NCBI GenBank assembly: GCA_027083925.1
Contig: JALWMK010000145.1
Coordinates: forward strand, 1-37,543
Direction: 5' to 3'
Length of the DNA stretch: 37,543 bases
Source of the DNA: Sedimenticola sp.
GTDB taxonomy: Bacteria; Pseudomonadota; Gammaproteobacteria; Chromatiales; Chromatiaceae
Shown here: positions 4,839 to 9,128 of the stretch, in pieces
Layout of the letters: the number at the start of each line of letters is the position of its first letter
Numbering within the stretch: position 1 is the stretch's first letter
Position numbers and translations under genes: made by a program
Notes under the pieces: model-generated
Seen by the model: the letters and a program-made list of their open reading frames with translations, nothing else
The model's database searches: none
What the model was told of the DNA's origin: nothing

Positions 4839-4866
4839 AAAAAGGGCGGTTCAACCGCCCTTTTTT
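4839..4866 (+). terminator. Rho-independent terminator after feoC (bidirectional)
   Basis: GGGCGGTT and AACCGCCC form a GC-rich stem separated by a single C, so the real loop is made from the stem top. An A run precedes it and TTTTTT follows it. On the minus strand the same hairpin is followed by five T residues, so it can also end transcription of the secreted-protein gene that stops at 4925. Confidence 0.9.
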
Positions 4867-4886: not shown

Positions 4887-4928
4887 CTAGCCCGGAAATC
4901 CCACATCCTGGTGCAATTTCCGGGCTAG
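4887..4928 (-). repeat. 13-bp perfect inverted repeat over the stop codon
   Basis: The arms CTAGCCCGGAAAT (4887-4899) and ATTTCCGGGCTAG (4916-4928) are perfectly complementary with a 16-base loop. The right arm contains the stop codon of the minus-strand gene ending at 4925. There is no T tract directly after it. It may stabilise the 3' end of the mRNA and work together with the terminator at 4839-4866. Confidence 0.75.
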
Positions 4929-6316
4929 TTTCCGTGAGGTGCCATCTTGGTGCTCATGAGCAGTATGTCGTATGGCCCGACCAGTTCGGATACTGTGGAA
5001 TCACCGGTATCCGATATCACGCCTTCTTCTTCTGCGGTAAGCTCAAAATAATAGTCCCCTTGCAAGGCGGCGCCCAGATCGATGACCTGGCCTGGTACCA
5101 CAGGCCCTTCCATAAGGATGATGCCGGTATTGTCTTTGTTGATCCGCAGGTGGACTTTATTGAACTGGCAGTTGCTGCGGGTGCAGAGCTGGATACGCAG
5201 TTGTTCATTGCCTTCGGAGTGATAGACGAAAGTATCGTTGTCGTATTCGAAGATGCCTACATATTTGGTTTTGGCAGGTGTAATGACTGCTTTTGACTCG
5301 CACGCATCTGCCGGTGATTGATTGGGAGCAGTGTTGGGATTGTCTGGCGTGACAGGGTTGTTGGTGATATCACATACGCAATCAGTCTGACCTGTGGGTA
5401 CTGTATTCGGGTCTCTCGTGTCACAGCCTTGGTACAGGTAGATATACTCGGTTTTTGCGGGGGTTTCGACCTCGATACGCTTGAGCAGGGTGCGGTTGAA
5501 CACGCCGGTCATGGCCACATTGGAGCGCAGTTGGTCGGCATTTGCCTTGTCATTGTTGGGTTCGGTTTCCGTATCGAAACGGTTTTCATCCGGATTGGCG
5601 GTTACCTGCCCGGTGTTCTCCAGATTGGCTGCAATGTTGTAGCCCCGCAGCTGCCCCTTGTCTTCCTTGGATTTGACAGAGATGTAATAGGTGCCCACCT
5701 TGCCCAGGGTGACTTCTGTGACCTTGGCGAAATCCACCGGAGAGGCATCTGTGGGTGTTGGTGTTGCGGTATTGCCCCCGGTTTCCCCGGTTTCCCCGGT
5801 TTCACCCCCTTCACCTCCGTTCTCGCCGCCACTGCCGGGGGGCGCGCTGTCGAATGCCGCGATAATGTTGCCGTTGAGGTCACGCACCTGGATGATCCAG
5901 CCGGCGGTTTCGGTAAAATTCCCGGCATCGGCCAGGAAATAGATGGTGAGCTTCTGGCTGGGTTTGTCGGTGATGACGTGATACCAGTCCTCATCAAACG
6001 GGCCGAGGGTATTGCCATGATAGAACTGCCCCAGCAGCAGGCCGTCGGCGTTGAGGATGTGATCATTGGGTTCGGTTTCGCCAAAGCCCTGATTCTTGGT
6101 CATGGGATAAATCCGCACACCGCAGGATCGTGGGTCAGCTCGGCAGTCCTCCTGACCGGCGGTATATCCTTCCTGGTAGTCGGCATCCTTGTTGGGATTT
6201 CCCTTGCCACCGGGCCAGAAGATGGCTGCCTGGGCTTGAAAGGTGGAAATGCTCATGATGCTTATTGCCACCGCCAGAGCAGACCAGCGGGCAGTCTTAA
6301 TTAGTGGGTTTTTCAC
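4925..6316 (-). CDS. Secreted protein with two PPC-like domains (downstream paralogue)
   Basis: This 463-residue protein has no assigned function. Translation probably starts at the GTG at 6316: GGAG lies 8 bases upstream, and the paralogue at 6405-7793 starts at the same point (VKN-L--KTARWSALAVA). A Sec signal peptide ends near AQA. The mature part begins WPGG and has a GYTAGQEDCRADPRSC block. Two regions then open with E-TEPN(D/N) (GETEPNDHILNA and TETEPNNDKANA), typical of bacterial pre-peptidase C-terminal beta-sandwich domains. Between the sandwich strands of the first domain lies a Gly-Glu-Thr-rich linker. Eight cysteines are shared with the paralogue, suggesting four disulfides and an extracytoplasmic location. 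No peptidase domain and no LPXTG or PEP-CTERM anchor is present. It is the second gene of a two-gene unit, 88 bases after its paralogue. Confidence 0.82.
   Translation of the reverse strand: MKNPLIKTARWSALAVAISIMSISTFQAQAAIFWPGGKGNPNKDADYQEGYTAGQEDCRADPRSCGVRIYPMTKNQGFGETEPNDHILNADGLLLGQFYHGNTLGPFDEDWYHVITDKPSQKLTIYFLADAGNFTETAGWIIQVRDLNGNIIAAFDSAPPGSGGENGGEGGETGETGETGGNTATPTPTDASPVDFAKVTEVTLGKVGTYYISVKSKEDKGQLRGYNIAANLENTGQVTANPDENRFDTETEPNNDKANADQLRSNVAMTGVFNRTLLKRIEVETPAKTEYIYLYQGCDTRDPNTVPTGQTDCVCDITNNPVTPDNPNTAPNQSPADACESKAVITPAKTKYVGIFEYDNDTFVYHSEGNEQLRIQLCTRSNCQFNKVHLRINKDNTGIILMEGPVVPGQVIDLGAALQGDYYFELTAEEEGVISDTGDSTVSELVGPYDILLMSTKMAPHGN
5776..5802 (-). repeat. 9-bp tandem repeat encoding (Glu-Thr-Gly)x3
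   Basis: Three perfect copies of CCCCGGTTT on the plus strand encode Glu-Thr-Gly repeats in the linker of the secreted protein. Copy-number change in units of nine would keep the frame. The paralogue lacks this repeat. Confidence 0.85.
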
Positions 6317-6404
6317 CTTGCTTTCTCCATTGCTCATGCTGCAGGGCGTGTAGCAATCACGCGCTGATGACGGCATCTGTTCGTTGTTTATTTGCGCGGC
6401 CATA

Positions 6405-7793
6405 TCAATTCCCATTTGGGGGTAATTTGGTGCTTCTGAGCAGGAAGTTGTACGGCCCGGTCAGGTCGTCAACGGTATGTACGCCGGATTCCGGGTCAAC
6501 CTGGGGGCCATCCACGGGTTCCGGGGAAAGCTCTATGAAATAGGTTCCGGGTCCGACAACGCCAAAGTCATAGGACCAGCCCGGCTGTATGGGGCCATTG
6601 ATCAAAACCACAGAGTCGTTGACATAGATGATGCGCAAATGCACCCGGGCAAAATCGCAACTGCCCTTGGCGCACATTTCAAAATGCAATTGCTCGTTGC
6701 CTTCCGAACGGTATACAAACCAGTCGTTATCATAGTTGTATGCGTATTCCCATGTGCCTCCTCCATCATTTTTTGGTTTGGCCATGCAGGTTCCGGCGGG
6801 GGTGTTCTCCACATCGCAGCTGCAGTCGCCTTGCCCAAGGGGGGCGGATCTAAGGATGCTTTCTATGTCGCCAGGGTTGCAATAGGTTCCGGTGACTGGA
6901 TCGGGGTAAACCCAGTCAATGTTATCCTCTGGGGGGACAAACCACTTCACCATCTTGCGCCCGAAAGTGCCGAACATATGCACGTTGGAGCGCAACGGGT
7001 CTGCTGCTTCCTGGGTATCATTGATCTCGGTTTCGGTATCGAAGAAGTTGGTGTCGGGGTTGGGAGAGATCTGGTCTGATTCGGAGATCATGGCGGCGAT
7101 GTGATAGGCCCGCTGTTCTCCCTTGTCTTCCAGGGAGGCTACGGAAATATAGTAGCGCCCGGCATTCCCCAAAGTGGCAAGGATAATCTTGGCATTGCTC
7201 AAGGGGGTTTTGGCCAGTATCGGTTCGCTGGGATCGACAACATCCTCTTCCTTGTCGCCGTTGCGGTAGACGTTGCCTGTGCCGCTGGTGGTGCTGTCGA
7301 AAGCGGCGAGAACGTTGCCGTTTCTGTCCCGCACTTCTACTACCCAGCCTTCGGTGATGGTGTAGTTGGCCTGGTCTCCCAGAAAACTGATGATCAGGTT
7401 CTGGTTGGGCTTGGTGGCGCCTACGTAGTACCAGTCCTTGTCAAATTTGTCGAGGCTGTTGCCCTTGTAGAAGCGATTGAGACGAAGGCGATCTGCTGCG
7501 GCCATGTGGTCGTTGGGCTCGGTTTCACCCCAGCCGGGGTTGGCAACTACATCTTCCAGCAGGACTTTGCAATCCTTGGGGTTTCTGACGCAATCCACCG
7601 CCCCGGTCTTGTAGCCTTTTTTATAGTCCTTGGAGGGGTTGGCGGGATCCGTGGCGCTGTAGGTGTTTGCTTCTTTGTTGGAATCATCGGTTCCGCCTGG
7701 CCAGTCAGTAGCTGCCTGGCTCTGGACGCTCATGACCCCCATTGCCACAGCAAGGGCAGACCAGCGGGCAGTCTTGTGTAGTGAATTCTTCAC
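6405..7793 (-). CDS. Secreted protein with two PPC-like domains (upstream paralogue)
   Basis: This 462-residue protein is colinear with the one at 4925-6316. The GTG at 7793 has GGAGG at a suitable distance and begins a signal peptide (KTARWSALAVAMGVMS, cleavage near SQA). The mature protein opens WPGG, then GYKTGAVDCVRNPKDC, then GWGETEPNDHMAAADRL (first PPC-like domain) and TETEINDTQEAADPL (second). Both proteins share a DND-FVYRSEGNEQL block, followed by paired cysteines, and a C-terminal tail STKLPPNGN / STKMAPHGN. The eight cysteines match those of the paralogue, including a Cys-x-Cys (CSC / CVC). PPC domains usually sit at the end of secreted peptidases, but here they form nearly the whole protein, so a binding or structural role at the cell surface or in the periplasm is more likely. 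Function unknown. Confidence 0.82.
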   Translation of the reverse strand: MKNSLHKTARWSALAVAMGVMSVQSQAATDWPGGTDDSNKEANTYSATDPANPSKDYKKGYKTGAVDCVRNPKDCKVLLEDVVANPGWGETEPNDHMAAADRLRLNRFYKGNSLDKFDKDWYYVGATKPNQNLIISFLGDQANYTITEGWVVEVRDRNGNVLAAFDSTTSGTGNVYRNGDKEEDVVDPSEPILAKTPLSNAKIILATLGNAGRYYISVASLEDKGEQRAYHIAAMISESDQISPNPDTNFFDTETEINDTQEAADPLRSNVHMFGTFGRKMVKWFVPPEDNIDWVYPDPVTGTYCNPGDIESILRSAPLGQGDCSCDVENTPAGTCMAKPKNDGGGTWEYAYNYDNDWFVYRSEGNEQLHFEMCAKGSCDFARVHLRIIYVNDSVVLINGPIQPGWSYDFGVVGPGTYFIELSPEPVDGPQVDPESGVHTVDDLTGPYNFLLRSTKLPPNGN

Positions 7794-7925: not shown

Positions 7926-8018
7926 CACTACCTGACAAAAGTTCTAGCTGAAATTGCGTTTTTGTGAGGTTGAACAAAGTTGGCGTGCCATCGCCCAGGA
8001 TTCCAGATTGGAGGGAAT

Positions 8019-9128
8019 ATGCCCGAGATAAATGATTTTCTGAAACTAATGGTAAAGAATGACGCATCGGATCTGTTTTTTTCCGCAGGTACTCCCCTGC
8101 ACATGAAGGTTGACGGGGTGCTTTCGGTGGTGAAGGACAAACCCCTGGGAGGAAAAGGCATTGCTGTGCTGGCAGACGGCATCATGACGGCCAGGCAGCG
8201 ACAGGCGTTTGAAAACCGGCCGGAAATGAATCTTGGCCTGGAGCTGGATGGCCATGGTCGTTTTCGGGTGAATGTGTTTCGCCAGCGGGGTGAGGTGGCG
8301 ATGGTGATCCGGTACCTGAAGGACAAAATACCGACCATAGCCGAACTCCATCTTCCGCCGATACTGGAGGAGCTGGTGATGAAGCCGCGGGGGCTGATTC
8401 TGGCGGTGGGGGCTACCGGTGCCGGCAAGTCCACTACCCTGGCCTCCATGATCGACTATCGCAACAGGCATAGCCGCAGCCATATTCTGACGGTCGAAGA
8501 CCCTGTGGAATATGTGCATCACTACCAAAAGTCCGTGGTCAACCAGCGGGAAATCGGCCTGGATACTGTCAGTTACGAAGACGCCTTGATGAATGCCATG
8601 CGTGAAGCGCCGGATGTGATCCTCATCGGTGAAATTCGTGAGCGCTCCACCATGCAGCATGCTATTGCCTATGCGGAAACCGGGCATTTGTGCCTTTCCA
8701 CCCTGCACGGCAGTAACGCCAGCCATGTGTTGGAGCGGGTTGTGACCTTTTTTCCCAAGGACATGCACGCCCAGTTGTTCATGGATCTGGCGCACAACCT
8801 GGTGGCCATTGTTTCTCAGCGTCTGGTGCGTGACAATGAAGGAAAACGTGTACCGGCGGTGGAGGTGATGATAATCACGCCCCTGGTTCGTGACCTGATT
8901 TCCAAGGGAAAAATCGACGAGGTTCGTGAGGCCATGGAAAGGAGCAGTGAGCCTGGTATGCAGACTTTTGACCAGTCCCTGTATCGCCTGTTCAAGGAAG
9001 GGCGCATCAGTGAGGAAAAAGCCATGGAGTTTGCCGAATCCCAGAGCAATCTTGGGGTGCGCATCCGCCTGGGCAAGGGGGGCACCCCGGACAATGAGGA
9101 TCTGCAGACCGAAGCCATGGGCAGCTGA
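8019..9128 (+). CDS. pilU: Type IV pilus retraction ATPase PilU
   Basis: This 369-residue GspE/PilT family ATPase acts on the cytoplasmic face of the type IV pilus machine. The N-terminal PAS-like part starts MPEINDFLKLMVKNDASDLFFSAG. The ATPase core has a Walker A GATGAGKST (131-139), the Asp-box TVEDPVEY (158-165), Walker B DVILIGEIR (199-207) and the His-box AETGHLCLSTLH (219-230). GEIRER-TM instead of GEMRDLETI, and LCLSTLH instead of LVFGTLH, point to PilU rather than PilT. The length is close to P. aeruginosa PilU (382). PilU supports PilT-dependent retraction. The ATG at 8019 follows GGAGGG closely, which fixes the start. No pilT lies beside it; the pilMNOPQ operon is 11 kb away. Confidence 0.9.
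   Translation: MPEINDFLKLMVKNDASDLFFSAGTPLHMKVDGVLSVVKDKPLGGKGIAVLADGIMTARQRQAFENRPEMNLGLELDGHGRFRVNVFRQRGEVAMVIRYLKDKIPTIAELHLPPILEELVMKPRGLILAVGATGAGKSTTLASMIDYRNRHSRSHILTVEDPVEYVHHYQKSVVNQREIGLDTVSYEDALMNAMREAPDVILIGEIRERSTMQHAIAYAETGHLCLSTLHGSNASHVLERVVTFFPKDMHAQLFMDLAHNLVAIVSQRLVRDNEGKRVPAVEVMIITPLVRDLISKGKIDEVREAMERSSEPGMQTFDQSLYRLFKEGRISEEKAMEFAESQSNLGVRIRLGKGGTPDNEDLQTEAMGS

Follow-up and report, generated by a model that had tools for sequence, protein, structure and literature searches.

PPC domains and the collagen-binding domains (CBDs) of clostridial collagenases, which belong to the same superfamily, are known chiefly as modules attached to secreted peptidases, and proteins that carry PPC domains are often exported by the type II system. 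In the clostridial CBDs, an N-terminal E-x-E-x-N-D/N segment and a D-x-x-D-type loop reportedly bind calcium. Collagen binding by the CBDs of ColG is Ca2+-dependent, and a PPC domain from Grimontia shows no such dependence (PMC6168687). Here we describe two adjacent genes, A and B, of the sulfur-oxidising marine bacterium Sedimenticola sp., whose products are exported proteins built of two tandem domains of this kind with no enzyme attached. The genes lie on a 37.5-kb contig (JALWMK010000145.1; this whole stretch of 37,543 nucleotides is called the window below) of a 2.58-Mb assembly that is an estimated 98.8% complete. The position, strand and length of both genes agree with the original prediction, which was made from the letters of the window alone, and the features of the pair are as follows.

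6405..7793, minus strand: gene A, from GTG at 7793 to the stop at 6405; 462 residues, exported tandem PPC/CBD-fold protein
4925..6316, minus strand: gene B, from GTG at 6316 to the stop at 4925; 463 residues, colinear paralogue of A
7710..7793, minus strand: signal peptide of A, about residues 1-28, by eye
6227..6316, minus strand: signal peptide of B, about residues 1-30, by eye
7569..7625, minus strand: short helix and C68-x6-C75 block of A (GYKTGAVDC..NPKDC); helix modelled at 55-70; site of long GX3 repeats in relatives
6122..6178, minus strand: counterpart block of B (GYTAGQEDC..DPRSC); helix modelled at 43-60
7083..7535, minus strand: domain 1 of A, CBD/PPC fold, with E90-x-E92-x-N94-D95 and D118-x-D120-W121 (structure match and conservation)
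6426..7055, minus strand: domain 2 of A, CBD/PPC fold, with E254-x-E256-x-N258 and D357 (structure match and conservation)
6786..6881, minus strand: Cys-rich loop within domain 2 of A (C305, C324-x-C326, C336), genus-specific (alignment)
5618..6097, minus strand: domain 1 of B, CBD/PPC fold (structure match)
4946..5578, minus strand: domain 2 of B, CBD/PPC fold (structure match)
5300..5425, minus strand: Cys-rich loop of B (C, C-x-C, C; sequence and alignment)

AlphaFold2 models of A and B (mean predicted local distance difference test, pLDDT, 73.9 and 76.5, with confident domains) were compared with the PDB by VIA-align 2. All four domains fall on the clostridial ColG/ColH CBD fold, at Z-scores of 13.5-14.4 and root-mean-square deviations (rmsd) of 2.0-2.8 Å against 3jqw, 1nqd, 4hpk and 2o8o: domain 1 of A matches ColH s3 (3jqw; Z 14.4, 2.1 Å over 113 residues) and domain 2 matches ColG s3b (4hpk; Z 13.8, 2.0 Å, 110 residues), while domain 1 of B matches 3jqw (Z 14.2, 2.8 Å, 115 residues) and its domain 2 matches 2o8o (Z 13.9, 2.0 Å, 108 residues). 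ColH and ColG CBDs are the top chains for both models, and unrelated folds appear from about Z 10 down; Foldseek rows for SIDT1, CUB and GOLD-domain proteins were discounted as the broad likeness that beta-sandwiches have to one another (whole-chain rmsd of 13-25 Å, or Z of at most 10). The tandem s3a-s3b of ColG (5iku) matches both domains of each model at Z of about 14, with an overall rmsd of 13 Å, so that the arrangement of the domains is not reproduced. At the sequence level, a profile of the family finds ColH s3 among PDB sequences at E 0.034-0.11, in register on the E-x-EPN block; a search of the same sequences with A alone gave no match.

The models contain a helix and two sandwiches only, with no catalytic domain in either chain, and scans of A and B against Pfam and NCBIfam gave nothing above cut-off and no peptidase. 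The PPC family PF04151, run over 49 family members, reaches a best E of about 0.001 (0.0011) in two distant members only; its matches displayed in full fall below the 25.9-bit gathering cut-off, and A and B have none. The two PPC-like domains per protein and the lack of a catalytic domain, both proposed in the original prediction, are thus borne out, and no full-length match to a characterised family arose in the profile and structure comparisons. A phage origin was rejected, as a search of PHROGs matched neither protein. Good support exists for the two-domain anatomy of each protein (four domains in all), for the lack of any enzyme and for a family specific to one lineage, and the family is one not catalogued before: Pfam and NCBIfam recognise neither A nor B.

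Set beside the clostridial CBDs, A and B share the beta-sandwich in both domains, the tandem arrangement of ColG s3a-s3b and residues of the calcium-site type (E-x-E-x-N followed by D-x-D). They differ in lacking a collagenase or other catalytic module, in an identity of 15-22%, and in having predicted disulfides, a Cys-rich loop and an N-terminal helix, the CBDs having neither disulfides nor such a loop; collagen is not expected to be the ligand. Relative to PF04151 the fold is the same, with both domains divergent and no peptidase.

The residues that we take to be calcium ligands, from published CBD structures and the HMMER alignment to ColH, are those of the E-x-E-x-N-D/N and D-x-D motifs of A and B. 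Conservation was counted over 48 relatives at about 25% identity (an alignment of 49 rows). In domain 1, E90, E92, N94, D95, D118 and D120 are invariant in every covering row, as are E254, E256, N258 and D357 in domain 2; W121 of the D-x-D-W motif is kept in 47/48, and the chief substitutions are D259/N259 and D355/E355. The alignment thus points to strong selection on the metal-site pattern despite such low overall identity, and this invariance suggests that calcium, rather than one ligand surface, is the common denominator of the family.

A and B are colinear from the signal peptide through to the STKxxPxGN tail (STKMAPHGN in A and STKLPPNGN in B), and both have the GYxxGxxDCxxxPxxC block (GYTAGQEDCRADPRSC and GYKTGAVDCVRNPKDC), two E-x-E-x-N-type blocks and eight cysteines that include a C-x-C. 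Every sequence feature named in the original prediction was found again, including the signal peptides of the form VKNxLxKTARWSALAVA and the EtEpN-type blocks. Its suggestion that the duplication is recent was contradicted: within the window A and B are 47% identical, with synonymous divergence (dS) saturated at about 2.2, and each forms one clade with 100% bootstrap support, the two clades showing the same major splits among the genomes. Orthologues of A in seven congeners are 71-95% identical, and the ratio of nonsynonymous to synonymous divergence (dN/dS) between orthologues, about 0.08-0.18, indicates purifying selection; the genes are therefore not chance frames.

Both genes occur in the same order in 8 of the 15 genomes that make up the genus set, and in a ninth (G012) a B-like gene is broken by a contig end. 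This B-like gene (locus L127, 78-857, plus strand) has a Lys/Pro/Ser-rich tail of about 50 residues after the STK motif, unique among members. The absence of the pair is firm in only some of the remaining genomes: contigs end in G014 and G003, and the feoB neighbourhood holds other genes in G007, G013 and G002; a clean empty site was not found in the pair-less genomes of the genus, where the region downstream of feoB differs or contigs end. The Sedimenticola relatives keep A and B as an inseparable pair. Because the duplication is old, the idea that A and B are needed together is strengthened, and their strict co-retention is compatible with the complex that the original prediction had suggested.

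Outside the genus, a profile of the pair finds relatives that are mostly single-copy, at 23-33% identity. Members occur in 43 of 210 genomes of the order, and no carrier besides the window's own genome was found among 369 genomes drawn across the class. The named carriers are Marichromatium, Thiobaca, Thiocystis, Allochromatium, Chromatium, Thiorhodococcus, Thiohalocapsa, Imhoffiella, Rhabdochromatium and Thiospirillum, of which Rhabdochromatium and Thiospirillum have two copies of their own. A link to phototrophy was rejected, since the carriers include non-phototrophs (the window's genus, G016, G024, G089, G090 and G108) and some phototrophs are without the gene. Genome G156, in which SgpA, SgpB and SgpC lie where their locus tags would place them, is taken to be Allochromatium vinosum. 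Its single homologue, at about 3,460,278-3,462,170 of the chromosome, adjoins a SLAC1/TDT gene that matches Alvin_3073 of a published table, and is therefore probably Alvin_3074. The literature that was searched gave nothing on PPC proteins of Chromatiaceae.

Across the eight congeneric genomes, all 16 A and B proteins have the eight cysteines in matching columns of the alignment, so that the predicted pattern stands for the genus; it fails as a hallmark of the family, in which only C68, C75, C374 and C379 run throughout (C68 in 48/48 rows, C374 and C379 nearly universal, C75 in 42/48) and whose distant members lack the full set. The other four, C305, C324-x-C326 and C336, are present in 17/49 rows, all from the window's genus, and lie in a loop inserted in domain 2. 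Relatives from purple sulfur bacteria have 15-27 cysteines, most of which sit in an inserted segment close to the C-terminus; the Cys-rich loop was thus placed twice, and it occupies different positions of the sandwich in the two groups. A subfamily with few cysteines (L015 556-2007, minus strand; L016 448-2133, minus strand) ends in a conserved segment, LLHIPEVKYDGLVWEADL / MSIPQVKYQGQIYRMNL.

Within the genus the loop of A has two forms, a long one that resembles the loop of B, in G004 and G010, and a short one, in six other genomes (long-loop A genes at L009 1501-2931 and L005 1501-2892, to be compared with 6786-6881 of the window). Outside the loop, the A protein of G010 is 84% identical to that of the window. 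Gene conversion between A and B in this loop is not demonstrated: DNA identity to the genome's own B is 59% in G004 and 53% in G010, without long exact tracts. Recombination between lineages, or turnover of the loop, is a possible source of the long form.

Before C68, most Chromatiaceae relatives have 4-13 glycines in a row at four-residue spacing (GYxxGYxxG...), far above composition shuffles, and such GX3 runs favour helix-helix packing. The exported GX3 repeat of the A. vinosum homologue (L125 10279-12171, minus strand) is unusual: it is built from near-identical GWWRGFADGDSQ repeats that keep 13 glycines in register at the four-residue spacing. Weak FliH and Yae1 matches of the relatives reflect the GX3 run and not homology.

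The predicted signal peptides are clear by eye and of the Sec type. A search for GspL (PF05134) gave no match in A. vinosum and almost all of the other Chromatiaceae carriers, and weak partial matches of 21-33 bits in the window's genus. Because most carriers have no recognisable GspL, type II secretion is rejected as a general route, and the proteins more likely stay in the periplasm or reach the surface in some other way.

We judge it about an even prospect that A and B are non-enzymatic structural or ligand-binding proteins of the periplasm or cell surface, stabilised by disulfides and calcium. On this reading, the two proteins would be exported by Sec, each with two tandem PPC/CBD-type beta-sandwiches; each domain would bind Ca2+, locking its N-terminal linker as in the clostridial CBDs, and four disulfides, predicted as C68-C75, C374-C379 and pairs among the four loop cysteines, may stiffen the protein beyond the cytoplasm, where conditions are oxidising. 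Self-association, or association of A with B, could be mediated by the short N-terminal helix of the GX3 type, and the variable Cys-rich loop of domain 2 may face a ligand or partner. In the periplasm or at the cell surface, the pair would then have a structural or ligand-binding role that depends on calcium. A bolder and rather improbable extension is that the family is a Chromatiales-specific class of structural proteins stabilised by calcium and disulfides. A and B would co-assemble by means of their GX3 helices and their tandem domains of the CBD type, and the product would be a coat or fibre in the periplasm or outside the cell, either covering the cell surface or enclosing stored sulfur; exchangeable Cys-rich loops would determine what is bound.

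Several observations weigh against the calcium-dependent structural or ligand-binding element. The packing of the domains is uncertain (predicted template modelling score, pTM, 0.44 for A and 0.41 for B), so that neither a domain arrangement nor an A-B interface is predicted. Calcium binding is proposed from residue conservation and the known CBD site, the model containing no ion; A and B of the window keep a short version of the GX3 run, with two glycines in register, modelled as a helix. Lastly, no gene neighbour is common to the whole family, and the context therefore points to no pathway.

In the window, the pair sits between feoABC and a divergent PilU-type ATPase gene, followed by uvrD. 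GGAGGAATAAG precedes the GTG start of A, and a gap of 88 bp separates A from the downstream B; a scan upstream of A found no consensus sigma-70 promoter, which is weak evidence either way. Two further features flank the pair.

4839..4865, no strand: symmetric terminator with a 12-bp stem, between the converging feoABC (plus strand) and B (minus strand)
7980..9128, plus strand: orphan PilU-type ATPase gene (context, not a member of the family), divergent neighbour co-retained in 7/8 pair-carrying congeners

The stem of this terminator is the longest found, and the regional count of such sites is not above that of shuffles. In several Chromatiaceae the homologue lies among glycosyltransferase genes, upstream of a trypsin-domain gene. 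The product of that gene is a large exported protein with two trypsin-like domains (L048 10381-12942, minus strand, and five similar loci, in Thiocystis, Thiorhodococcus, Imhoffiella and Allochromatium).

The neighbouring genes bear on some of the other explanations. The pair could encode a surface adhesin or matrix protein whose CBD-like domains attach cells to one another, to mineral or to other surfaces, possibly together with type IV pili. In secreted proteins PPC/CBD domains serve as binding modules, and the orphan pilU is 81-98% conserved in the congeners that retain it and absent from the seven genomes of the genus that do not carry the pair. However, G001 has no PilU beside its pair, pilU does not figure among the genes that recur around the Chromatiaceae homologues, and linkage and shared ancestry can account for the co-occurrence; nearly all pair-less genomes of the genus keep a different PilU-type gene, and the second PilU-type gene of the window's genome is in a pilT-pilU pair elsewhere (G000 contig 31). 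Nearly all Chromatiaceae carriers also lack a recognisable GspL, and with it the route by which PPC proteins usually leave the cell; we consider the adhesin a plausible but somewhat unlikely candidate. An accessory in trans, with the PPC module detached from a secreted peptidase and guiding that peptidase to its substrate, would fit the usual company of PPC domains and the trypsin-domain protein downstream of the homologue in the six loci above, but that gene lies on the opposite strand, only one clade has the arrangement, and neither the window nor the congeners showed a recognisable peptidase gene near the pair; we regard it as highly improbable.

The restriction of the family to a sulfur-oxidising lineage raises a further explanation, that of a periplasmic protein associated with sulfur globules, such as a coat or docking protein on stored sulfur. 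Sulfur globules are periplasmic and the Sgp proteins use Sec signal peptides (PMC10386293). SgpA/B-type proteins occur in every checked carrier but one 84%-complete assembly, yet a match is equally universal in non-carriers (59/60 genomes), so that this co-distribution is uninformative. The named globule proteins of A. vinosum, SgpA-D, resemble A and B in being Sec-exported, in belonging to the same lineage of sulfur oxidisers and in a repetitive Gly-containing segment seen in some family relatives; they differ in being short, repetitive Gly/Tyr/Pro-rich or coiled-coil proteins, whereas A and B are two folded beta-sandwiches with predicted disulfides. SgpA, SgpB and SgpC were located in G156 and are short, hydrophobic, repetitive and Gly/Tyr/Pro-rich, a kind to which A and B do not belong, and the presumed Alvin_3074 is not among the listed genes that differ between pyrite and sulfide. 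A globule protein is on this evidence unlikely. Even less credible, and in our estimation close to negligible, is a periplasmic inhibitor of g-type lysozyme resembling PliG, which would guard against the lysozymes of hosts or grazers: PliG (4dzg) is likewise a stand-alone exported protein of the periplasm with a related fold and no catalytic domain (Z 10.4-10.6, 2.3-2.4 Å against domain 1), but it is a single domain, its Z falls short of that of the CBD chains by nearly four units, and we know of no lysozyme link for A or B.

The PPC/CBD module is of a type already known, and what we describe is a variant of it and not a new kind of system. A whole family made of two such domains, with nothing catalytic, has nevertheless gone unseen by Pfam and NCBIfam, and the old, strictly kept pair of A and B is a candidate hetero-oligomer. 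As the order that carries the family includes the genetically tractable Allochromatium vinosum, the role of a PPC domain free of any enzyme becomes testable.

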